Below are positions 34,834 through 64,000 of a stretch of 64,000 nucleotides of DNA, piece by piece. The notes under the pieces were generated by a model. It was given only the letters and a program-made list of their open reading frames with translations. It did no database searches and was not told the origin of the DNA. Source of the stretch: Candidatus Obscuribacterales bacterium (GTDB taxonomy: Bacteria > Cyanobacteriota > Vampirovibrionia > Obscuribacterales > Obscuribacteraceae); NCBI GenBank assembly GCA_019744775.1, contig JAIETZ010000001.1:124001-188000 (forward strand), in the 5' to 3' direction. Positions within the stretch are counted from its first letter, which is position 1, and the number at the start of each line of letters is the position of its first letter. Made by a program: the position numbers and the translations under genes.

Positions 34834-35907
34834 ATGTCCCGCGCGGGCGTCACTATCTGTTGTTTAGCCGTCAGTTTGTTTGCCTTGAGCAAAGAAGCTA
34901 AAGCTCAGTCATTGGCACCGCCTCCGGCGGCAATTCCTGCACGCACTGAAACAAATCTGATACCAGGAACAGTCCAGGCTGATGTTGTGCAACAGACTCT
35001 CAATGCAGTTGAGCAAGCATCTCCCGATACGATGCCTATTGATCTGGTGCCGGTACAGCTTCCTTCTCGAACAAACCCGATGCAGTATGCCAAAGAAGGC
35101 ATCCTCTTTCATTTGCCGGCACGCATGTTTTTAACAGGCACTGTAGAAAACAGCCTGCGTTTGGAAACAAATATTTTTCAAACTAGCAGCCACTACAGGC
35201 AAGACATGATTTACCGCATACTGCCCAATATCACTATGGGTTATGCGCTTTCCCGCAAGACACGCGTATCGGCAAATTACTTCTTCTTGCGAGATCAGTA
35301 CGCATTTCACAATTCACTGATGAGTCGCAATATTCATTCGGTTGGCTTTGAAGTTGACAGGGATTTCCAACTAACGCCTAAGACCACACTTACAACAGGG
35401 CTATTCAACAGGCAATTGTTCATGACGGGCTCGCAGCCATTCACCGATATTCTGCCATCGGTGACATTAGTGCGTCGTGTCGGTCAATCAACCATTCTCT
35501 ACAGCAGTATCATGGGTCAGTTGCGTTGGCGAAATATGTTCACCCGCTGGCAGGAAGGTGACCAGTTTTACACCATTGGTGCAATCTATCGAAAAAACCT
35601 ATGGGCGCTTTCTGCCAACACAACTCTGGTCAGCAGCTTTGGTGTGCCAAGCCTTCGCGGTGGCGCCAACAACCAAGTCTTCATTTCGACCTTTGAAATA
35701 GACCGACAACTAACACGCAAACTTCCTATCATCGCTTTCGTGCGCGCACAACCTATCTTCAACATAGGCGCCAACCAAAGCCCCGGATTTGCCGGAGTCA
35801 ACTTCCGCGTCTACGGCGGACTACGCATGGATATCTCCAAACCGGCACTATTCCCACCAAAAGTCGGCAAACAATACCAGTTAGCTAAAGCCGGCGAGTT
35901 GAATTAA
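34834..35907 (+). CDS. Predicted outer-membrane beta-barrel protein
   Basis: 357 residues. The signal peptide (ICCLAVSLFALSKEAKA-Q) is followed by a Pro/Ala-rich linker and a long series of alternating amphipathic strands ending in aromatics (ITMGYALSRKTRVSANYFFL, TTLTTGLFNRQLFM, WALSANTTLVSSFG, IIAFVRAQPIFNIG), the usual look of a beta-barrel. It does not end in Phe, which argues for a C-terminal extension. Upstream are TATAAT at 34775-34780 with a weak -35, and an AAAGGG site. Its stop is one base from the convergent TPR-CHAT gene. Confidence 0.65.
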   Translation: MSRAGVTICCLAVSLFALSKEAKAQSLAPPPAAIPARTETNLIPGTVQADVVQQTLNAVEQASPDTMPIDLVPVQLPSRTNPMQYAKEGILFHLPARMFLTGTVENSLRLETNIFQTSSHYRQDMIYRILPNITMGYALSRKTRVSANYFFLRDQYAFHNSLMSRNIHSVGFEVDRDFQLTPKTTLTTGLFNRQLFMTGSQPFTDILPSVTLVRRVGQSTILYSSIMGQLRWRNMFTRWQEGDQFYTIGAIYRKNLWALSANTTLVSSFGVPSLRGGANNQVFISTFEIDRQLTRKLPIIAFVRAQPIFNIGANQSPGFAGVNFRVYGGLRMDISKPALFPPKVGKQYQLAKAGELN

Positions 35908-35908
35908 C

Positions 35909-38900
35909 TTACTTTGCTTCACCAATAAGTTGAAACGCAGCCCAGTAGCGTGGATTAGCGCGTATAAATGTTGGTGAACTTGGATCAGCCATCGATCCCT
36001 CCATTGTAGAAATGGTCTGCAATTGCGCTTCTCTAAGCGCTTCTGCTTTGCCTTTACCAGCCAACAAAGTCTTGTAAAAGACTTCCATTTGGAATTCGGC
36101 AATTACATCATCTACATTCCAATGACTGACGATTACCGAAGGCGTGCCTGCTGCAATAAAAGCACGCGATAAACCAATGACGCCGTCGCCTGTTATTTTG
36201 CCGCGTCCAGTCTGGCAGGCAGACAAGACAATCAGCTTCGACTTCAGCGGCGGCAAGCTAAGAATATCCTTGACCGTCATGAAGCCATTGTCATTGCCAT
36301 CTTTGGCTAAGACCAAGCCTGATAAAGTCGGCTGTTCTTCATTAATAATGCCGTGACAAGCCATGTGCACAACCGACGACTTAGGTGCGGTGCTCACAAA
36401 AGTTGCTCGTGTTGCATCGACTCCCAATCGTTTAGTAGATTTAGCAGCGCCGAATAATTCAGCAGCTTTAACAACTTCTTTTTCTGCGTATGGCAACGAA
36501 CCCAAAGTCGCAAATATTTCTGTTTTGGGATTGCCAAAGGCCATCAGCGTATTATCGTTGAGTGAAGAATCGCGCAGCTTGGCAGTAGACTGCAATACGG
36601 AGACTGCAGGCACAACGGACAGTACAGAGTTTTCTACAACAAACTTACCTTGTTGGTTCATCAAAGCCGCAAATGGCACCAGAAATAATGGGCCATGCGG
36701 GATAATAATTAATTGCTTGCCCGCTAAAAGTGGTTCTGCCGATCCCAGCAAAAGCTTATGCATTTGCTTGAGCTTTGCTTGACGCAATTGCCCTTGCTTT
36801 TTGATTTCTTCAAGGGATTTCGGTTGAGCTATGAGCAGGTTGTACAGCTCAACAACATTCTTGCGCAATTGCTTTTGTGATATAGGTTGCGCCGGCAACA
36901 AACGGATTGAGCCATTCGCATCAATCAACCAAACAAGCAATTTATCCGGCAATGAATAGAATTCCAAACAGACTGCATTATGATCAACTACTTGTTGCTT
37001 CAGCTCAGCCAGAGACAGAGCTTTGGAAGTTACATTGTTTGCCGTCGAATATTCTTGTGACAAATGCGTAAGATCGGACGGCAATACTTTTGAATTTAAC
37101 GAATCTTCTCCGCCATTGGCACTTAGTGAGTGCGCAACACCTTGTCTTGCCGCCAGCAAATCAGTAAATGCACGTGCTCTACTTCTCTCAGCAATCTCCA
37201 GAGCCTCCTCTGCATGTCCTTGTTGTACAAGCAAATCAACAAGCTCATAAAAGCAATCTTGACGCAAATCCAAATTGAATGTTTTAAAAGTATCGCGAGA
37301 CAATTGGCTTCTTTCCTGTTCAGCCATCTCCGCTGCTTGTCTCAAGGACGCTAATGCCGCGTCGGTTTGCCCAAGAGCTCGATAGGCTTTACCTAATCCA
37401 AGATGACAATCCCAGCGAGCTTCCGTGTTGCCTGCATCAGCCAATGCAATAGCCTTATTGTAAGAATCAATTGCCTTGTCCGGCTGCGAACTAAGCAAGT
37501 AAGCAAGTCCTTCTCCACGCAATGCCTGACCTTCCAGGTTTTTATCGCCTGCGCCACGGATTAAAGAAAGAGCTGATTGATAATCAGCAATGGCTTCAGC
37601 GGACTTGCCTGAAAACAATTTCGATTGTCCCAAGTTATAGGCTAATATTGCTTGCCCTTTTTTATCATTGAGAGATGCTAAAAGCGCCGATGCTTCAGCA
37701 AATATCTTATTAAACTCGGCTATTTTTCCGTTGTCTAAATAGGCAACAGCTAAATTATTTGCTGCAAGCGCTTTAGCTCTCGTGTCGGCAGAAGCAGCCA
37801 GCATGGCATAAGCCTGCTCATAGTTCTTAATTGCCAAATCAAGCTGCCCTAGCGACTTATAGCACATGGCTAGGTCAGTCGTGAGAACTGCTTTAATCGT
37901 TCCTGATTTGCCACTATCTTTTCCAAGCAGCGCATAAGCGGCGAGATACTTATCGAGAGCTTGCTCAACATTGCCACTGACAAATTGAACGTAACCCAAT
38001 TCGGACAAGACTGCTCTTGTTCTATCGGAGTTTTTCAATGCCTTGGCAGATGACAGTGCATCGCTCAAGATTTTGTTTGACTCTTCAAACTTTCCTTGAG
38101 CGGTACTGATGGCGGCTAAACTAGTTTGGCAATCTATCAATAGCAATTTCGACTGCACATCGTCCTGCGTTAACACCTTCTGTGCTTCTTGTAACTGAGC
38201 CAATGCCTCGTCATATCTTGCCTTGCCGGCAAGTAGTTGACCTGACGCCATTAATGCCTTGCCTTCAGAAGCAGTGTCAAAATCCTGGTTGAATTTCTCC
38301 TTTGCGTGTCGATAATTGTCCAAAGCATCATTCACAGATCCCAAATCTGCCTGAACGCGTCCAATTTCCATGTATAAGCGTCCCATTTCCGCATCTGATC
38401 CGCTTTGTTCCACAATCGGTAAAGCTTTGTCTAAATAAGACATAGCCTCTTTTAGATGATTTTGAGATCTCTCAACAACAGACAGGTTCATAAGCGCATT
38501 GGCAGTAATGGCGGCCATATTATTCGCCTTAGCATCAGCATAGGCTAGTTCATAATATTTCTTCGCCTCGACAAGATTTCCTTGTTGCATAGACAACGAG
38601 CCAAGGCTAATCGTGATTGATAAAGCGTCGTCTATCAACTGGAACTGCTTTGCCGTCGCTAAAGCTTCTTCATATGTCTTGCGTGCATCATATGTCTGAT
38701 TGTTAGCTACAAGTATGGTCGCTAGTGCTGACAGGCTACGCACAAGTGGAGAATGCCTTTTAAGAGATTTTTCCATCTCCACTGCTTGCTGCATCAAAGC
38801 AATAGCTTGAGGCAAGTTACCGCTTTCATAAGTGGCCTTTGCTGCGTCGTAAAGTTTATCGGCCTGCTTAACAGGCGAATCTGTTGTCGAGGCAAATGTA

Positions 38901-38956
38901 GAAACAAAGGGCCCAATCAATATTAGGCTCAAAACTAGGCTAAAAATTCTACGCAT
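35909..38956 (-). CDS. Exported TPR-CHAT domain protease
   Basis: 1015 residues. Signal peptide (SLVLSLILIGPFVSTFA), about 14 TPR motifs over residues 30-560, and a C-terminal CHAT domain, a caspase-like cysteine protease fold. The catalytic dyad is visible: His868 in HMACHG and Cys914 in LSACQTG. The typical LSGLVLA, GVIGLSRAF and SHWNVDD segments are also present. TPR-CHAT proteins are cut-and-activate proteases in defence and in cyanobacterial surface loci. A signal peptide here argues for an extracytoplasmic target. The ATG overlaps the stop of the FecR-domain gene as TAATG, so the two are coupled in translation and probably in function. Confidence 0.92.
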   Translation of the reverse strand: MRRIFSLVLSLILIGPFVSTFASTTDSPVKQADKLYDAAKATYESGNLPQAIALMQQAVEMEKSLKRHSPLVRSLSALATILVANNQTYDARKTYEEALATAKQFQLIDDALSITISLGSLSMQQGNLVEAKKYYELAYADAKANNMAAITANALMNLSVVERSQNHLKEAMSYLDKALPIVEQSGSDAEMGRLYMEIGRVQADLGSVNDALDNYRHAKEKFNQDFDTASEGKALMASGQLLAGKARYDEALAQLQEAQKVLTQDDVQSKLLLIDCQTSLAAISTAQGKFEESNKILSDALSSAKALKNSDRTRAVLSELGYVQFVSGNVEQALDKYLAAYALLGKDSGKSGTIKAVLTTDLAMCYKSLGQLDLAIKNYEQAYAMLAASADTRAKALAANNLAVAYLDNGKIAEFNKIFAEASALLASLNDKKGQAILAYNLGQSKLFSGKSAEAIADYQSALSLIRGAGDKNLEGQALRGEGLAYLLSSQPDKAIDSYNKAIALADAGNTEARWDCHLGLGKAYRALGQTDAALASLRQAAEMAEQERSQLSRDTFKTFNLDLRQDCFYELVDLLVQQGHAEEALEIAERSRARAFTDLLAARQGVAHSLSANGGEDSLNSKVLPSDLTHLSQEYSTANNVTSKALSLAELKQQVVDHNAVCLEFYSLPDKLLVWLIDANGSIRLLPAQPISQKQLRKNVVELYNLLIAQPKSLEEIKKQGQLRQAKLKQMHKLLLGSAEPLLAGKQLIIIPHGPLFLVPFAALMNQQGKFVVENSVLSVVPAVSVLQSTAKLRDSSLNDNTLMAFGNPKTEIFATLGSLPYAEKEVVKAAELFGAAKSTKRLGVDATRATFVSTAPKSSVVHMACHGIINEEQPTLSGLVLAKDGNDNGFMTVKDILSLPPLKSKLIVLSACQTGRGKITGDGVIGLSRAFIAAGTPSVIVSHWNVDDVIAEFQMEVFYKTLLAGKGKAEALREAQLQTISTMEGSMADPSSPTFIRANPRYWAAFQLIGEAK

Positions 38957-39930
38957 TATTTTTGAGTAGAATTTTGAGTTTCAGCTATAAAGCCTTGCGT
39001 GCCATTCATGTAGTTGAGAACGGCTGCCATTTTAGACACATCACCAAGGATACGTCTTTCCTTTGTGCCTGTTTCCTTCTGCGTCATGTCGGCAATCAGC
39101 ACACTTGTGTTAAGCAGACTCTCGACAGAATATTGACTTACCGCCATATGACCGTTTTCCATAACTTTGGAATAACGTCTGCCTACACCATCGGTTGGTC
39201 TAAGTTCTTTTCTTGTCAATTTTCGCTCACAGGCAATAACTTCATAGCCTGGCTGAATGCAAACCGTCGGATCTGCAGGTCCGGCAAAAGGGCCCTGATC
39301 AAGTTTAGCCATGATGGAATCGCCACGACCCGTAAGGTTGAATATTCTCAGCACACCGTTATCAAGACTTATTTGCGCATCACCATTAGCTGACACTGCA
39401 ATCGTTCCAAACGGAGTCTTTATCAATGCAAGATGCGATGGCTGTTTGACAGAGACAAGAATAGATCCGGATTTCAGTTCGAAGGAAAATGGGCTTAAGC
39501 GATCACATTCCGATCCGCTTGCTGTCTTGATGATAATCCAGTCAGTTGATCCTTTTGCGTCTTCCGGCTTTGGAAAATTCTTGTCGGAAACTTCATTGAC
39601 ACCATTAAGCGCCAACGGACTATCAAAGGAACCCTTGAAAGGAAGATTGCCTGTCGTGTAATTAGGCGTAACAGGCGTCACATCTGTCGGCACCACAATT
39701 GGTGGCGTATAGACCTGATTATTAGACGGCGGAATGAACATCACCGGCGGAGGCGGTGGTGGAGGTGGTGGTGGCGGTGGCGGTGGTGGAGGACTCCATG
39801 AAGGAGGAGGCGGTGGCACCGGAATATAGTCGTATGGACCGTCTTCCAAACTAAGCTGCGCGCTGACAGGCAAGCCAACCAAAATACTGAACGCCAATGC
39901 AGGCAACAATAACCATCTAAATAATTTCAT
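38956..39930 (-). CDS. Exported FecR-domain protein with polyproline linker
   Basis: 324 residues from the ATG at 39930; the longer frame begins at a TTG with no ribosome site. Signal peptide ([18 protein letters not shown]), then a linker with 16 consecutive prolines, then a FecR-type beta domain ([26 protein letters not shown]) and a tail with DGVGRR...[12 protein letters not shown]. This last half aligns with the C-terminus of the giant adhesin at the right end of the window. FecR domains in iron signalling sense occupancy of outer-membrane receptors; no sigma factor is present here, so a surface or sorting role is more likely. Coupled to the CHAT protease gene. Confidence 0.8.
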
Positions 39931-55610: not shown

Positions 55611-58600
55611 TTATTGATAGGAGCCGCGAGAAGCGGTTACCAAGCTCAAGCTGGCGCCGGCTTTGACTATCTGGTCGATAGTGGACTTGTCCTTAGGCTT
55701 CTTGCTGTGAACAAGCTTGCCTATCAGGGAGTGTTTCTCAAGCAAGGAAAGCGTCGAGAATTCGCCATATACCGCTTGTTTGTCGGCAAAGGTTATCTTC
55801 TCCATACGGCGTCTAGCTATTCCGTCTGCCTTTGTATTGGATACAGCCTGATCATCGGCACCGATTACGAGTTCTTGTCCGGCACGCAATTTCACATACT
55901 TGCCATTGGACAAGACGGTAACTGCACCTATCGAACGCTCACCAAGGTTGCGCACCTTGAGTACGCCCTGCTGGTAGCCGACAAGGGCGATAACACCGCG
56001 GCCTACTGAGACAGTGCTATCCCAAATACTTACATCGATTGGTTTGTCGGCATTAACAAGCACTTCTCCGTTGTAGAGAACAACGTTCTGCTTGTTGGAG
56101 CCCATCTCAACCCAGCCGACATAACGCAGTGTTCCTTGTGGAACATCAAGAGACATAAGCTCTTGCGCTGCTTTGCCAACATTACCTGGCGACACGCTCG
56201 TATAGGCTACCGGCACAATCACGCCATCAGTATATGCATAGGAGATTGTGTCACCACGCATTGACGGATGAACGAAACCAATGTGGTTCTCGGAGCCAAG
56301 AGTGTGCAACAAGTGGTTGATGCTTGAGCGCATTCCTGGTGTCAGATTGTAGTTCTCACTGCTCAAGAGATTGGTCACAAACGGTGATGTTGTCGGATTG
56401 AAGTTGCTCGTATTTGAGCTCAATCCATCAACTGGACCCAGTTGTAGACCTGATCCATAGACAGTATCGGATGCACCGACACTAGCTATTTGCGAGCTGA
56501 CAACATTCATTTCCAGACCCTGGGCGATATTCTGAGTTGAACTTTCGCCGTTGTGGGTGACATCGAATGTGTTGCTACCCATCAAGCTGGCAACAGTTAC
56601 ACCGCCGAACTGATCTTGTTTGATGCCCGCAGCTGAATTTCCAGCAACGTTGATGGTGCCATGTCCTGTTTGTACAGAGATAGGATCGCCACCGGCAATT
56701 ACCGTCAGACTGCCTTGCTGCAAGGTGATTTGATGATCACCGGTGAGCATGAATATCGTACCCGGAGCAGCGAACACTACTGTTTTGTCATCACCAGGCA
56801 ACACATATGGTTGTGATGGGTTGGTGACAATAATCCAAGCGCCGTTCTCTTCAGCTGTCTGCTCATTCATTTCGATGATGTCTGTGTACTCTTCGTTAGG
56901 ACCATCAGGTACGCGACCTCTAGTTCTATCGGTTTCCACAGTGGCATTACCGGAAATGAATGGAGTTATCGGCTCGATATCTGCATATGGATCGGTAATT
57001 TGCAATTGAGTATTGCGAGGACCGATTTTCGGGAAGAATTGCGCACAGTTGACGAAATTACATCCGATAGCAGTGCCTAATCCAACAAAAGTGTTCCAAT
57101 CCAAGTAGCCTGCTTGTTTATCCGCTAGGGTCAAATCTGAGTAGTTTAGATTACCCATATTTAGGTATTCCCCACCGAGTATCATCGCAAGTCCACCTGC
57201 CCCACCAATGTTGAGGTCGTGGTCAGGTCCAACGTGAATTCCCACTTTACCGGAGAAAAAGTCACTGGCGCTAGCCGTGATTTGGGTACCTGGATCCAAC
57301 CAAATATCATATTCCGTAATGCTGCCATAGTTAGAAGTAGCCTTGGACAGATCTAGATAGATAATCCCACCAGTCGGCCCGCTCTTGCTATCCAACAAAC
57401 CGTTAGCTTGGATACGAGTTTTCGATTTGTCCGGATCAGAATTTAAGCGTAGCGCTCCACTTAAGTAGATGTCGATGCGTCCGCCTTTTTCACCGTTGGC
57501 GAGAATGGCGCCTGCTGTTCCGTTTGTATCACCTGGTCTTAGAACGACGTTGAAGGTATCAGTTGTGGAAGTTTCGATACGGATATAACCGCCGTTACCA
57601 CCAATACTGGATACATCGATACTGGCTCCATTGTCGTTAACCAAGGTAACAAGCAAGTGTTCACTTGGATCGATGATGGTTCCGCCGTTGGCTCCGTTGA
57701 AACCACGGGCATCGAGAAGTCCTACTGTAATGTTGCCCTTGGCGAACAAACTGATGGTGCCACCTTCATTACCTGCACCATACCCTTGAGACAAGAGTCT
57801 TGTGTTTGGTCCATAAATGTCGCCGCCATTAGCATTCAAGGTTATTGTTCCGCCGGATGTACCGCCGAAGAATGGATAACTCGATACATTGATGTTTGAA
57901 CCAAAGGTCAAATCACCTCGTTGTGTCGTTATGGCAACAGTGCCACCACGTACACCCGAGATGAAGATCTCACCAGTCAAGCGTCTCATATCAACATTGA
58001 CGCTCGTTCCAAAACCACCGCTATTGAATACGACATTATCGCCGGCAATAAGTGATCCACCGTTGGCGCCACCATCTATATTGATAGAACCAAAGAAGCC
58101 GGCATTGAATGTTGCATCGTCACCTACAAGGATGAACGATCTTCTGCCTGTCTGAATATCAATCGAGCCACCCAAGAGTGAAGCACTGATTGTCAGATCA
58201 CCACCAGCAGCAAGAGTTGACCTTGCACCGGTTGTGATGTTGACGTCGCCGAACCAGTCGGCGTCAATTGTCATATTGTCGCCGGCAGCAAATATCGATC
58301 TGCGTCCAGTATTGATTTCGATAGAACCGAAATCTCCACCTTCGATACTCATATCATCGCCGGCAGCAAATACTGAACTTCTACCGGTGTTGATAGCAAT
58401 TGATCTATCAGCATCGATATTCATATCGCGACCAGCAGCAAATATTGAGAGTCTGCCAGTGTTGATATCGATGTAACGGTCGGCATCAATGTTGATATCT
58501 CTGTCGGCACTTACTACTGATAGACGTCCAGTCTGAATGTCTATTGAACGATCAGAAGTCATGACCAGATCTCTGCGAGAAATCATCGCTGAAAGATCAC

Positions 58601-61600
58601 CGGTTCTAACATCCATCGATCCACCGGCATTAAGGACTAGATTTTGTCCAGCTGTCATTACTGAGAGATCGCCGGTTCTGAGATCCAGGTGTCTACCAGC
58701 ATTCAATACCAAGCTATCACCAGAATTCATCACTGAGAGATCGCCTGTTCTAACATCCATTGATCTACCGGCAGTCAATGTCAACTGGTCACCAGCTTCC
58801 ATAACTGAAAGATCACCAGTTCTGACATCCGTGTTTCTACCGGCGCTAATGATTAAAGCGGCACCAGCGGTCATTGCTGACAAGTCGCCAGTTGTAACAT
58901 CGACTGATCTGTCGGAATTGATAATCATGTTGCCGTCAGCAGTCATTGCTGAAAGATCACCAGTTGTGACATCAATTGATCCATCGGCATCAAGCTTCAG
59001 GTTTCCACCGACGGTCACGGCTGAAAGCTCAGAAATTGTAACGTCTATAGATTCACTAGCGTTAGCCGTCAGATTTCCATCAACGTTTACAGCCGACAGA
59101 TTAGCAGTGGTGATACCTATTTCAGTTCCTGTAAGCACAGCATTACCGGAAACGGTAAGAAGTGAAACTTCACCCGTAGAGACATTGAGAGGTGCACCGT
59201 TGGCAGTGAGCGTTAAGTCATTGCCGACAGAGAACAATGTTGTATTACCGGTCATGAGGGTCAACGAACCATTGGTTACAGTGGCCGTTAAGTTATTGCC
59301 TACGTTAAAGAGCGACGTATTACCGGTCGATATGATCAAAGGACCATTGTTGCCAGTCAGAGTCGCATCATTACCTACATTGAATAACGAAGTATCACCA
59401 GTCGTGATGTTTGCCGAAGTGCCGGCATTAATCACAAGATTGCCGCCTGCAGAGAACAATGAAGTGTCGCCTGTGTGGATATCCACCAAACCATCTGCAT
59501 TAAGCATCATGTCACCACCGGCTGTAAACAATGAAGTTTCACCAGTTGTTATCGTCAACGCATCACCGGAGCTTACGGTTATATCGTCACCTGCAAAAAC
59601 TGTGGAGCCTTGTCCAGTAAGAATTGATACTGAACCGCCATCGGCAGCATTCATTGTTATGTCACCAAGAATGGCGCTCAAAGCCGAACCTTCATTCAAT
59701 ACAACAGACAAGGCAACATCATTGGTATCAAGAACAAAGTTGCCTGTAATAGCAGTCACTTTGGAATCTTCACCAAGTGTCAAAGATTCAGTAATGAACT
59801 GAATACTTGCACCTGTAACTGTTTGATTATTTAGAACACCAATTGCGCCGCCGGCTTCAACTCTTACGGTCGAACCAAACGAAGTAAGCAAGTCTACGGA
59901 ATCATCTTCCAATATATAGACCGCACCAAGTGTTTGAAATTCAAGTTGATCGGCATTGATGTAGATAGGTTTAGCGTCTTCACCAATTGCACCAAAGCCA
60001 GATTTCAAACTGACTTTGTCAGCAATTAGCTTGCTGCCTGTTGTGTTCTTGATGCTTCCCAAGGAAGCAGCAGTGACTTGAATAGTGCCAATTGTTCCAT
60101 TAGTTGCTGCAACTACGCCATCAATTGTGATGGTACCTGGGCTGAGCAGCTGACCAGTGGTGACCAGGCTAAAAGTCTTACCATCGCCAGCAGATGAAGG
60201 CTTCAGCGTTACATTACCGGCATTTGTCAAATAGACATTACCGGTGGTGTGGGCGTGCAGCTCGTCAGCATCCGTAGAGATAGCAGCGTTGCTCGCACCA
60301 ATGTTGCCACTGACGGAGCTGAGCTTAACTACGTCGGCTTCAAGGATGCCAGTTTGGCGCGAAATATTACCAGCACCGTCAGCTTCTAATTGAATTAGAT
60401 CAATAGCACCAAACAACGAATTATCGTCAACATCACCAGCAAGTGTAATCGAACCATTATTGATGGTCGACAACTTGAAGGTCTTGTTGCTTCCTGCAGA
60501 TGATTCAAGGAGTGTGACGCTGCCGTCATTGCGGACGTAGACATCACCTTTTGTATTCATGCTGAGGTTATCGGCATCAGTATAGATGCGCTGATTGGAA
60601 GTACCAATTGTGCCGGTGCCCGATGTCAAATCAACACGTGTAGCAACGAGTACGCCGTTAACGCGGGTAATATCACCGGCGCCATTAGCATTCAAGTTAA
60701 TTTTAGCGAGCACGCCCGATGAAGCAGTAACGCCACCATCGATTTTGATATCGCCGTTATTGGTTGTCACCAACTCATAGGTCTTGCCGTTGCCGGCTGT
60801 TCCTGCAAGCAATGTCACGTCACCGTTATTGCTTACATAAACGTTGCCGCCGGTGCTGGTTGCTTTCAATGTATCGGTCAAGGTTTTAACACGGGCACTC
60901 GATGTACCAATGTTGCCGCCGGCAACAACTAAGTTGACGTTCTTAGCATTGATCTCACCACTGGTGTACAACATATTGCCACTGTCGAGAATGGTTACGT
61001 TGACGGTATCAATACGCGAAGTTGCAGAATTGATATTGCCATCGAATGTGACATTGCCTCTGTTGGTCAAGTCAAATATGTTGTTCTGACCAGCTGTTGA
61101 AGCCTTGATTACAACGTTACCTTCGTTATGTAGGTATACTACGCCCTTGCTTGTAGTCTTAATCAGACCGGTCGCCATGATGATGCGCTTTAGAGGATCG
61201 CCAATATCACCATTTTGAGTGTTCAATTCAACAGATGTACTCGTTAGAATTCCATCGGTCTGAATAATGTCACCATTGTTTCCGGTCGTGAGCTTAGTCA
61301 AACCAGTAACGTTCAGGTGATTACCCAAAGTAATATTACCGTTGCTTCCAGCAGCTTGAAGCTCCAACCCTGCTCCGGCCGTCAGGATACCTGTCGTCAC
61401 GATGTTGCTGCTTGAACCTGTGGTGGTAGCTTTGAGCAAGAAAGTGGTTGTGAAAGTGCCCAGTGAAATATTACCGGTATTAGATAGGATGAGGCTTTCA
61501 CCTGTGCCAGTAATACTCAAGTCGCTAGAAGTATTGATGATTCTTACACCGCCCGTTGAGCTGACGATAATTGCGCTTGTCTTGGTGACAAGTCCACCAG

Positions 61601-64000
61601 CTCCGCCATTGATACCACCGGTATAAGCCAATAAGTTAAGCGATGGAGCCTGCAGCGTTTTACCAGCTGTCTGCGTTATAGCGCCGTTACTTCCTGATGC
61701 CCAGATGTAGCTGGGTGAACCTGCTGTTACGTTGGAAAGCAATGCAACTGTGCCGCCATCTACTGTAATTAGTTTGACAAAGCCTGTCGCAGTCAAATTG
61801 CCGGCTACGTTAATGTTGCCATTTTGAACAAACATCAAGTTGGTGCCACTCCATGGTCCTACATTGATGGAGTGGGCAGCATTTGAGTTGAACAAATAAG
61901 CGCTGCCTGTTGTGGTGAAGGTTATGTTGTTTGCAATTGAATAAATTGGTCTTTGTTCAGTACCAAAATTCCCGGAACCGGAAACCATCTCCAATGTCGG
62001 GGTGGAGATAATGCTGTCGATTTGCGTTATGTTGCCGGCACCAGAAACAGTCAATTTCACTTTATTGCCTGCAGTACTTGTGGTCGACAAGTTCTTGCCC
62101 AATTCAATGTTGTTGCCGTTTTGTGCGGTCAAATTGATACTGCCAGTTGCATAAACTGGTCCTGTAACTTCAATCTTGCCATTAGCAGTTAAATTCAAGG
62201 TGCCTGCAGTTGATGGCAGATTTGCCGTGGTGCCAAGTTTGACACCGCCGGTCATCGTGAAGTTTGCAGTGCCTGTTGTACCAATAACTAATTGTCCGGC
62301 GTTGCTGGAATTCACATTGATACCACCTGTACCGGCATAGACACCTAGCATTGGCGCATTCAAGGTATTAACAGAAACAGATGAATTAGCAGCCGCTGCC
62401 CATAGGGTTATGGAATTGCTTCTGCTCAAAGACGTCATCGAGATATTGCCGTTGTTGGACACCAATACCAAGTTCGGTGCAATCAATTTGGAGATGCCGT
62501 TATTATCGTTTGTGATTGAGTTGCCTTGTATTAGGTATAGCGAACCCTGCGTACCTAAAGTCGTAACGTTAGCTTTAACCCAAACGTTAGAGATACTCTT
62601 AAAGACACCGGCAACTGTGGTTACTGGTCCATTAATAGTCAAATCACCAGCAGTTGCATCAATTTGTATGCCAGAAGCATAGGATTCAAGCAGCGAAACA
62701 CTACTGGCTGAGTTAGAGATGTAGGCTAGACCATTTGTCCTAACTGACAAAACAGCGGCATTCATCATGATTGGGTTTATTGACTGACCGAAACTGCCAT
62801 TTGATGAGAACAAGTTGGCAGCGCCTGTGGTTATAAGCCCAGTACCTACGTTGCCATCAGAAATTAGATATACGGTTCCCGGAGCAATCATATTGCCACC
62901 AGTTGTGGTAGTGACCGTATTCAGTCCGATGGTGCCTGCTCTATCAGTTCCTGTATGAGCTTGTGCAAAGACTAACGACGTTTTGCTAGATCCCAATGAG
63001 ACATTATTGAGTTCAATATTGCCGCCTGTCGATGTACCACCACCAATAACCATCCATGTTTGTTGGTTGGCGCCGGTACCGTAATTCAATGTAGCGGCAT
63101 AATCACCAGCAGCCACAATGATTTGACCATTTGGTCTAGTGGCGCTTGTGCCCGCATCGATCTTTGCGCTAAGCGGTGCGTTGCTTGCAGTTATGTCACC
63201 GGAAGCCAAAATTATGAGATCACCAGGAGCATTGTAGGTAGAACCACCGGCAAAAAGGTTGGTTGATCCAGTTGATAGATCAAGACTGCCGCTGCCGTTT
63301 TTAATAACAGTTACCCCTGTTGTTGCAAGTACTTTGCCCAATCCGCCGCCGATGTTCAAACCGTAGTTTGTATTCCAGCTTAGACGTCCAAAGACAACCG
63401 GCTTAATTAGGTAATTGACACCATTTTGTTGTGTCAAGAAAGTGACCGATCCGCCGGCTACTGTTGCTTGGTTGATGTTCGGTCCGGCTGGTCCACCTGT
63501 TACCGTGACGGTCGGAGACTGAACAAATACCGAACCACCTCTGCCCAGATTAGCAAATGCCGTGTATTGATATTGACTTGTCTGCACAAGCGTCAGAGAC
63601 TGTCCGCCAAGCGCATTGATAACACCATTAACTGTGACGCTTGTTCCGGCAACTAGGTTGATGTTGCCGCCATTAGACACTGGTCCTTGACCTAGGGTTC
63701 CTGCTCCACCGTATGTCGAAACACTTCCGCCTGTCGGCATTGGTGTGGTTGGGAATGGTGAACACAAGAAGCATGGATTGACATTCGATCCTGTTCCACT
63801 CGTGCTGACAAAGTCACCACCTGTAAAACTAGGTACAACAATGTTAGCTGCAGCGGCGAGGAAACTTATAGATGTTTGCGTTACTGCATTGTCGATGACC
63901 AACGTAGAGGTAACACCTGAAACACCAAAGTGGGTTTCATAGCCGGTTGTGCTGCCGTGATCATCTATATAGAAGCTCATTCCATTAATAGGTACAATTC
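55611..64000 (-). CDS. Giant repetitive beta-helix surface adhesin, 5' end outside window
   Basis: At least 2789 residues. The frame stays open to the right edge (IVPING precedes the first Met at 63980), so the true start, signal peptide and any TPS secretion domain lie beyond it. The composition is rich in Gly, Asn, Thr, Ser and Val with short beta repeats, typical of filamentous-haemagglutinin-type parallel beta-helices. There are two repeat classes: five units of about 104 residues (59.9-61.2 kb) and 21 units of about 24 residues (58.1-59.6 kb). The last 165 residues form a FecR-like module ending DGIARR...SLLEKHSLIGKL and a basic tail. It is probably exported and surface-bound, with a role in adhesion or aggregation. 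The bestrophin gene follows. Confidence 0.88.
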   Translation of the reverse strand, partial: IVPINGMSFYIDDHGSTTGYETHFGVSGVTSTLVIDNAVTQTSISFLAAAANIVVPSFTGGDFVSTSGTGSNVNPCFLCSPFPTTPMPTGGSVSTYGGAGTLGQGPVSNGGNINLVAGTSVTVNGVINALGGQSLTLVQTSQYQYTAFANLGRGGSVFVQSPTVTVTGGPAGPNINQATVAGGSVTFLTQQNGVNYLIKPVVFGRLSWNTNYGLNIGGGLGKVLATTGVTVIKNGSGSLDLSTGSTNLFAGGSTYNAPGDLIILASGDITASNAPLSAKIDAGTSATRPNGQIIVAAGDYAATLNYGTGANQQTWMVIGGGTSTGGNIELNNVSLGSSKTSLVFAQAHTGTDRAGTIGLNTVTTTTGGNMIAPGTVYLISDGNVGTGLITTGAANLFSSNGSFGQSINPIMMNAAVLSVRTNGLAYISNSASSVSLLESYASGIQIDATAGDLTINGPVTTVAGVFKSISNVWVKANVTTLGTQGSLYLIQGNSITNDNNGISKLIAPNLVLVSNNGNISMTSLSRSNSITLWAAAANSSVSVNTLNAPMLGVYAGTGGINVNSSNAGQLVIGTTGTANFTMTGGVKLGTTANLPSTAGTLNLTANGKIEVTGPVYATGSINLTAQNGNNIELGKNLSTTSTAGNKVKLTVSGAGNITQIDSIISTPTLEMVSGSGNFGTEQRPIYSIANNITFTTTGSAYLFNSNAAHSINVGPWSGTNLMFVQNGNINVAGNLTATGFVKLITVDGGTVALLSNVTAGSPSYIWASGSNGAITQTAGKTLQAPSLNLLAYTGGINGGAGGLVTKTSAIIVSSTGGVRIINTSSDLSITGTGESLILSNTGNISLGTFTTTFLLKATTTGSSSNIVTTGILTAGAGLELQAAGSNGNITLGNHLNVTGLTKLTTGNNGDIIQTDGILTSTSVELNTQNGDIGDPLKRIIMATGLIKTTSKGVVYLHNEGNVVIKASTAGQNNIFDLTNRGNVTFDGNINSATSRIDTVNVTILDSGNMLYTSGEINAKNVNLVVAGGNIGTSSARVKTLTDTLKATSTGGNVYVSNNGDVTLLAGTAGNGKTYELVTTNNGDIKIDGGVTASSGVLAKINLNANGAGDITRVNGVLVATRVDLTSGTGTIGTSNQRIYTDADNLSMNTKGDVYVRNDGSVTLLESSAGSNKTFKLSTINNGSITLAGDVDDNSLFGAIDLIQLEADGAGNISRQTGILEADVVKLSSVSGNIGASNAAISTDADELHAHTTGNVYLTNAGNVTLKPSSAGDGKTFSLVTTGQLLSPGTITIDGVVAATNGTIGTIQVTAASLGSIKNTTGSKLIADKVSLKSGFGAIGEDAKPIYINADQLEFQTLGAVYILEDDSVDLLTSFGSTVRVEAGGAIGVLNNQTVTGASIQFITESLTLGEDSKVTAITGNFVLDTNDVALSVVLNEGSALSAILGDITMNAADGGSVSILTGQGSTVFAGDDITVSSGDALTITTGETSLFTAGGDMMLNADGLVDIHTGDTSLFSAGGNLVINAGTSANITTGDTSLFNVGNDATLTGNNGPLIISTGNTSLFNVGNNLTATVTNGSLTLMTGNTTLFSVGNDLTLTANGAPLNVSTGEVSLLTVSGNAVLTGTEIGITTANLSAVNVDGNLTANASESIDVTISELSAVTVGGNLKLDADGSIDVTTGDLSAMTADGNMIINSDRSVDVTTGDLSAMTAGAALIISAGRNTDVRTGDLSVMEAGDQLTLTAGRSMDVRTGDLSVMNSGDSLVLNAGRHLDLRTGDLSVMTAGQNLVLNAGGSMDVRTGDLSAMISRRDLVMTSDRSIDIQTGRLSVVSADRDINIDADRYIDINTGRLSIFAAGRDMNIDADRSIAINTGRSSVFAAGDDMSIEGGDFGSIEINTGRRSIFAAGDNMTIDADWFGDVNITTGARSTLAAGGDLTISASLLGGSIDIQTGRRSFILVGDDATFNAGFFGSINIDGGANGGSLIAGDNVVFNSGGFGTSVNVDMRRLTGEIFISGVRGGTVAITTQRGDLTFGSNINVSSYPFFGGTSGGTITLNANGGDIYGPNTRLLSQGYGAGNEGGTISLFAKGNITVGLLDARGFNGANGGTIIDPSEHLLVTLVNDNGASIDVSSIGGNGGYIRIETSTTDTFNVVLRPGDTNGTAGAILANGEKGGRIDIYLSGALRLNSDPDKSKTRIQANGLLDSKSGPTGGIIYLDLSKATSNYGSITEYDIWLDPGTQITASASDFFSGKVGIHVGPDHDLNIGGAGGLAMILGGEYLNMGNLNYSDLTLADKQAGYLDWNTFVGLGTAIGCNFVNCAQFFPKIGPRNTQLQITDPYADIEPITPFISGNATVETDRTRGRVPDGPNEEYTDIIEMNEQTAEENGAWIIVTNPSQPYVLPGDDKTVVFAAPGTIFMLTGDHQITLQQGSLTVIAGGDPISVQTGHGTINVAGNSAAGIKQDQFGGVTVASLMGSNTFDVTHNGESSTQNIAQGLEMNVVSSQIASVGASDTVYGSGLQLGPVDGLSSNTSNFNPTTSPFVTNLLSSENYNLTPGMRSSINHLLHTLGSENHIGFVHPSMRGDTISYAYTDGVIVPVAYTSVSPGNVGKAAQELMSLDVPQGTLRYVGWVEMGSNKQNVVLYNGEVLVNADKPIDVSIWDSTVSVGRGVIALVGYQQGVLKVRNLGERSIGAVTVLSNGKYVKLRAGQELVIGADDQAVSNTKADGIARRRMEKITFADKQAVYGEFSTLSLLEKHSLIGKLVHSKKPKDKSTIDQIVKAGASLSLVTASRGSYQ
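58090..59640 (-). repeat. 21 tandem coding repeats of about 72 nt
   Basis: Each unit encodes about 24 residues of the form S-x-D-V-x-T-G-D-L-S-x-M-x-A-G-x-x-L-x-x-x-A-x-R. Neighbouring central units are exactly 72 nt apart (for example 58876 and 58948). The core TGxxS is nearly invariant. One unit equals one turn of a beta-helix. Confidence 0.85.
59890..61210 (-). repeat. Five coding repeats of about 300-312 nt
   Basis: Units open with an IGxSxxRI motif (near 61200, 60905, 60600, 60300 and 59990). They continue with a TxADxL segment, GxVYVxNxGSVTLL, SSAGxxKTFxL and ADGAGxIxR. They are more diverged than the 24-residue class. Confidence 0.75.

Follow-up and report, generated by a model that had tools for sequence, protein, structure and literature searches.

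A gene for a TPR-CHAT protein in a genome of Candidatus Obscuribacterales (Cyanobacteriota) raises the question of what such a protein might act upon once it has left the cytoplasm, and whether the genes on either side of it, one FecR-like and one for a predicted outer-membrane barrel, would encode its partners. In the window (the whole 64,000-nucleotide stretch of DNA that was analyzed) the features concerned are arranged as follows.

34834–35907, plus strand: predicted 12-stranded outer-membrane beta-barrel protein of 357 aa, with a signal peptide at about residues 1–24 and the conserved pre-barrel motif DLVPVQLPSR.
35908, no strand: one base between the convergent stop codons of the barrel and CHAT genes.
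35909–38956, minus strand: putative TPR-CHAT cysteine protease of 1015 aa, with a signal peptide at about residues 1–22, TPRs at about 35–600, the CHAT domain at 727–1013 and the dyad H868/C914.
38954–38958, minus strand: TAATG stop-start overlap of the FecR-like and CHAT genes.
38956–39930, minus strand: predicted FecR-fold exported protein of 324 aa, with a signal peptide at about residues 1–24, a Pro-rich stretch, a PTDVTP motif, a FecR-like domain at about 128–282 and a C-terminal helix at 289–309.

The preliminary description placed the FecR-CHAT pair correctly at 35909–39930, and the TAATG by which it joined the two genes was read on the minus strand (...CTCAAAAATAATGCGTAGA...): the last A of the FecR stop TAA (38958–38956) is the first base of the CHAT ATG (38956–38954), giving a one-base overlap common to both genes, and no Shine-Dalgarno-like run lies directly upstream of the CHAT start. 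The convergent barrel gene that it reported beside CHAT is indeed tail-to-tail with it, the barrel stop occupying 35905–35907 and the CHAT stop beginning at 35909. Promoter and terminator scans gave matches at about chance level. Elsewhere in the window, a 2789-aa ORF (55611–63980, minus strand) has DUF2345 (residues 1681–1792) as its sole match over the curated cut-off.

Residues 727–1013 of the CHAT protein match the CHAT domain (Pfam PF12770, E = 7.7e-65, 219.6 bits against a cut-off of 24), C-terminal to the TPRs, for which several models match too, and the protein therefore belongs to the TPR-CHAT group. H868 and C914 are both present and are invariant across 31 aligned orthologues; the dyad had been called intact, with its loss in orthologues named beforehand as counter-evidence, and no loss was seen. 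Judged by these residues, the protein is probably a cysteine protease with an intact His/Cys dyad. The closest CHAT chain in a PDB search was 8rot, at an E-value of just 3.1e-5, and a literature search found no paper describing this entry. In the CHAT tree the lineage of the window protein (CHAT-A) forms a separate clade (support 97/98).

This organization recalls Csx29 of the type III-E CRISPR system (Craspase), in which a CHAT domain with a His/Cys dyad likewise comes after TPRs. Its known substrate, Csx30, is encoded by a neighbouring gene (PMC10028731). Csx29 acts in an RNA-guided cytoplasmic complex, whereas the window's CHAT is apparently exported and has a FecR-fold protein and an outer-membrane barrel as candidate partners; the Pfam scan recognized neither Cas7-11 nor Csx30 among the neighbouring genes, and the locus thus falls outside Craspase. 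An anti-phage defence protease like those of the studied TPR-CHAT systems could be argued for from the domain family that the window's CHAT and Csx29 have in common, but this is extremely unlikely, given the apparent export of the protein, its stable presence over 17 genera and the lack of recognized CRISPR or defence genes nearby. A PADLOC search of the trio returned generic TPR models or a weak partial match, with no full-length system-specific match, and the defence reading was rejected. Another relative, from the same phylum, is HetF of Anabaena, a membrane-associated protein with CHAT and TPR regions (PMC8406250). In HetF, however, CHAT is N-terminal (aa 1–555) and accompanied by one transmembrane segment, whereas that of the window protein is C-terminal, behind a signal peptide.

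Signal peptides were called by a homemade scorer plus inspection. Signal-peptide-like N-termini were found on the CHAT, FecR-like and barrel proteins (for the barrel, MSRAGVTICCLAVSLFALSKEAKA^Q), the next residue after the predicted cut being S, Q and Q, respectively. They are kept across orthologues; by this scorer the earlier claim that both FecR and CHAT carry signal peptides thus stood, the absence of which in orthologues had been named as the outcome speaking against it. The accompanying proposal that the target should be outside the cytoplasm likewise fared well: an envelope target is the best reading of these exported-type N-termini. When 48 TPR-CHAT proteins from Cyanobacteriota genomes and plasmids were sampled, the scorer called a signal peptide in 40 (control rates of the scorer: 9/235 for internal windows of the same proteins and 53/141 for other ORFs), and most of the remaining eight look exported by eye. 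Export would therefore be the rule in the phylum and the partner set the special part of this locus. Consequently, the contrast drawn by the preliminary description with cytoplasmic defence TPR-CHATs stood in part: the studied proteins are cytoplasmic or membrane-bound, but export is common in the phylum. Exported Cyanobacteriota TPR-CHATs, such as that of the DUF1822-CHASE2-DUF928-CHAT plasmid operon of Picosynechococcus PCC 7003, resemble the window protein in their exported-type N-terminus, the order TPR then CHAT and a small gene directly upstream; no reported substrate for them was found in open-licence papers. The window genome itself encodes two more TPR-CHATs, one of them with no signal peptide and the other with a signal-like N-terminus (L185). 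The former (L184:5350-8258) is conserved over the family; it is followed in the window genome by a gene for a small exported LTXXQ (Spy/CpxP-like) protein, and in relatives, too, genes for similar small exported proteins come after it.

The FecR label divided according to the method. Pfam FecR (PF04773) did not match the window protein at an E-value of 1, and it was matched weakly by 8 of 30 FecR-like family members (best E = 0.0038); the predicted fold, on the other hand, bore the label out. An AlphaFold2 model built from 18 sequences has a mean pLDDT of 73.8, with the central domain mostly above 85. Its sole Foldseek match at E ≤ 0.001 is the periplasmic domain of the PupR cell-surface signalling protein (6ovk, E = 3.4e-4), and VIA-align gave Z = 11.3 for 4m0n (FecR-type) and 11.2 for 6ovk, the next unrelated chain being at 4.8. 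According to this model, the protein has the FecR fold but lacks the anti-sigma part. The window system resembles FecR, PupR and FoxR in the predicted fold of residues 128–282 (Z 11.2–11.3) and in the outer-membrane barrel encoded alongside; it differs in that the window FecR has no N-terminal cytoplasmic anti-sigma domain with transmembrane segment, which sets it apart from FecR-type anti-sigma proteins, and in that the barrel is 12-stranded and not TonB-dependent. The Pfam scan found neither an ECF sigma factor nor a TonB-dependent transducer among the neighbouring genes. Since the N-terminus consists of a signal peptide and a Pro-rich stretch, the usual anti-sigma action is ruled out for this protein.

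A related system in which the barrel senses a signal, CHAT cleaves FecR and the cut is relayed to the cytoplasm, via a membrane protein or a kinase/sigma-like cluster, is rather improbable. In its favour, a FecR-fold protein, an outer-membrane receptor and periplasmic proteases work together in FoxA/FoxR signalling (PMC11637429), and the type III-E TPR-CHAT cuts an anti-sigma protein (PMC10028731); additionally, a sigma-like HHH protein and a Ser/Thr kinase are encoded upstream of FecR-CHAT in several genera. However, the HHH protein resembles sigma factors only weakly (best E = 0.0011) and has no match in the window genome, genomes that lack CHAT retain the kinase cluster, and the missing anti-sigma domain and the strand number of the barrel count against it as well. 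An operon joining sigma factor, FecR and barrel was rejected on the same grounds of HHH distribution. The cluster comprises four genes (L085:10713-15583; also L084, L086, L088 and L195–L202), for the HHH protein with sigma-70-ECF similarity, an unknown protein, a zinc-ribbon protein and the Ser/Thr kinase, and it is present without FecR-CHAT too. Two further observations concern FecR-like sequences: they recur weakly within open frames of 5600–7400 codons in the window genome and relatives (G000:C3:462792, G000:C6:60147 and G000:C4:464800), and in many genomes a FecR-like paralogue adjoins a multi-pass protein of about 790 aa (L070:12221-14581, L067:98-5053, L098, L099 and L100). The latter proteins gave no Pfam match and, by eye from their sequence, may be GT-C-type glycosyltransferases.

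For the barrel protein, the Pfam scan gave no match. AlphaFold2, with an alignment of 37 barrel sequences, placed 12 long strands in residues 98–336, mostly at pLDDT > 85, in keeping with the outer-membrane barrel predicted earlier, and Foldseek matched the model to NanC, OmpG and FapF (E about 1e-6 to 1e-5). With a signal peptide and predicted transmembrane strands, the protein is probably an outer-membrane beta-barrel. Three barrel paralogues of the window genome directly adjoin very large ORFs rich in repeats (about 2000 to 2900 aa or more; L210:8431-18497, L211:23-18500). It has to be considered whether CHAT, FecR or both reach the surface through the barrel as a secretion pore, with CHAT trimming surface proteins there. 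This is unlikely: the Foldseek matches include the 12-stranded polypeptide transporter FapF, but many barrels are matched at similar E-values, plain porins included; Pfam recognizes no two-partner-secretion POTRA domain, and CHAT lacks a known passenger or sorting signal. On the other side stand the surface-protein type of the repeat-rich ORFs beside barrel paralogues in the same genome (2896–2931 or more and 1994 or more aa) and one genome (G367) in which a CHAT gene follows that of a PATR-repeat protein of autotransporter type.

The distribution of the three genes was followed in 50 genomes of one family, probably Obscuribacteraceae, which loci of named records, among them Ca. Obscuribacter phosphatis, place in Candidatus Obscuribacterales. 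A CHAT-A orthologue is present in 35; 34 of them also have the orthologue of the window's barrel (barrel-A), which is absent from all 15 others; in the one exception the contig ends inside CHAT. Barrel-A orthologues share 38–98% identity and paralogues about 30–42%, and the two were separated by score and position. FecR-like genes occur in 35/35 CHAT-A genomes vs. 3/15 others, a partial match in G139 being counted as present. The Fisher p-values, in which kinship is ignored, are 7e-12 for barrel-A with CHAT-A and 4e-9 for FecR-like genes with CHAT-A. A convergent barrel lies downstream of CHAT in all 33 assessable loci, as the next gene in 23, behind one or two small genes in 8 and behind three to about six in 2. 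FecR is directly upstream of CHAT on the same strand in 19 of the 33, divergent in 2 and not at that position in 12; genera g2, g5, g12 and g21 form a clade that lacks this adjacency, with FecR-like genes lying elsewhere in the genome. The survey of FecR-CHAT gene pairs suggested by the preliminary description thus found the pair in more than half of the loci, but the coupling is not the most conserved feature; conversely, the barrel, mentioned there as mere context, proved present at every assessable locus. Because the barrel tracks CHAT presence and FecR is upstream in just 19 loci, CHAT and barrel form the core and FecR is the third member, which may be an optional partner in view of the 12 loci where it is not adjacent. 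Paralogues of the FecR-like and barrel genes are found apart from CHAT too, and both families therefore have wider roles.

Conserved gene order alone, in which the genes are neighbours by vertical inheritance without a joint function, is very unlikely to account for this distribution. The surrounding Ctp, CobA, 4HBT and kinase-cluster genes are syntenic over many genera too, and because in many genera the chromosome around the locus is conserved in any case, vertical inheritance explains some of the synteny. However, besides the co-occurrence of CHAT-A and barrel-A, the genes are jointly absent from G105 and G046 and jointly present in a different neighbourhood in genera g1 and g6. G105 (locus L196) offers an empty site, a Ctp-CobA-4HBT-201aa-kinase cluster without CHAT, FecR or barrel, and the rest of this genome, which is 77% complete, yielded no FecR or barrel orthologue; its congener G055 (L088) has all three genes at the corresponding site. 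G046, 93% complete, has none of the three. The trio also stands together, though among other neighbours, in the window's genus and in G036, and the FecR proteins encoded in the slot upstream of CHAT come from separate branches of the FecR tree, some deeper support of which is modest. The joint absences, the intact trio in another neighbourhood and the varied origin of the FecR slot argue against shared ancestry alone.

Beyond the family, FecR-CHAT was considered as a widespread pair and rejected. In 30 Cyanobacteriota genomes, with about 150 CHAT and 11 Pfam FecR matches, none were adjacent and no Pfam FecR gene lay ≤5 kb from a listed CHAT gene, a survey in which Pfam would miss divergent FecR domains like that of the window. 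The nearest pair was 6.5 kb apart, in G367 (2.6 Mb), where a stretch of about 12 kb encodes, all on one strand, a protein with PATR repeats, a CHAT protein and an exported FecR protein (L205:3929-15985). Open-licence papers contained none on an exported TPR-CHAT protease or a FecR-CHAT pair.

A short motif, P-[TI]-[DE]-[VIL]-x, is common to the FecR-like and barrel families, where it stands in a low-confidence exported stretch before the folded domain; in the window it reads PTDVTP in FecR (39660–39700) and PIDLVP in the barrel (35030–35070). Six examined barrel paralogues of the window genome all carry PT[DE][VI]xP (L210, L211, L212, L213, L214). In FecR-like proteins a Pro-rich stretch is followed by the form [VIL]PTD[VILY]T, the search pattern being matched by 22 of 29. 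In barrels linked to CHAT, D/E-L-x-P-[VIL]-x-[LI]-P-x-R precedes the first strand (30/32), and 13 of 30 also match the PxD pattern. Although only 1 of 239 other ORFs of these loci matches, the motif was found after looking and serves as a lead only. A whole-genome search for PTDV-type sequences gave 10 matches vs. 4 for a reversed-pattern control: the window FecR, three barrel paralogues, one ORF with a membrane-like N-terminus and others that look unrelated. It is quite doubtful that the motif is a common docking or cleavage site at which CHAT, working beyond the cytoplasm like a caspase-type switch, would cut or hold both partners; if true, this would be an envelope-localized counterpart of the Csx29-Csx30 logic.

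We consider it somewhat probable that CHAT, the FecR-fold protein and the barrel work together in the cell envelope as a proteolytic module of three parts. The exported-type N-termini, the dyad, the predicted folds, the conserved adjacency and the joint presence and absence are read from the genomes; from them we infer that the three proteins may interact, that an outside signal may activate the protease and that the FecR protein or the barrel tail may undergo limited cleavage. After export by Sec, the TPR-CHAT protein would work as a cysteine endopeptidase, either within the periplasm or on the periplasmic side of the outer membrane. The FecR-fold protein, translated immediately ahead of CHAT from one message, would be a partner reserved for CHAT in the envelope; it would bind the TPR superhelix and either regulate the protease or serve as its substrate. 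The barrel would form the outer-membrane end as a platform, signal receiver or substrate via its conserved periplasmic tail, the stretch with the D/E-L-x-P-[VIL]-x-[LI]-P-x-R motif. The TPRs would hold the protease on the FecR-fold protein and/or the barrel tail until an envelope event releases or activates it, and the activated CHAT would make a limited cut in one of the two. By analogy, such an envelope switch is supported by a Pseudomonas circuit of a FecR-type FoxR domain, an outer-membrane receptor and the periplasmic proteases Prc and CtpA (PMC11637429), and by the single cut that the TPR-CHAT Csx29 makes in the product of the neighbouring gene (PMC10028731).

The co-inheritance of CHAT, a putative caspase-like protease, with barrel and FecR suggests a three-part proteolytic switch in the cell envelope of these bacteria, which are relatives of cyanobacteria that do not photosynthesize. 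The mechanistically studied TPR-CHATs in the papers found are cytoplasmic or membrane-bound, whereas the exported kind is common in Cyanobacteriota. The module offers two candidate partners, a naturally vacant locus for comparison and a conserved sequence as the candidate site, which makes the cleavage target of an exported CHAT protein testable.
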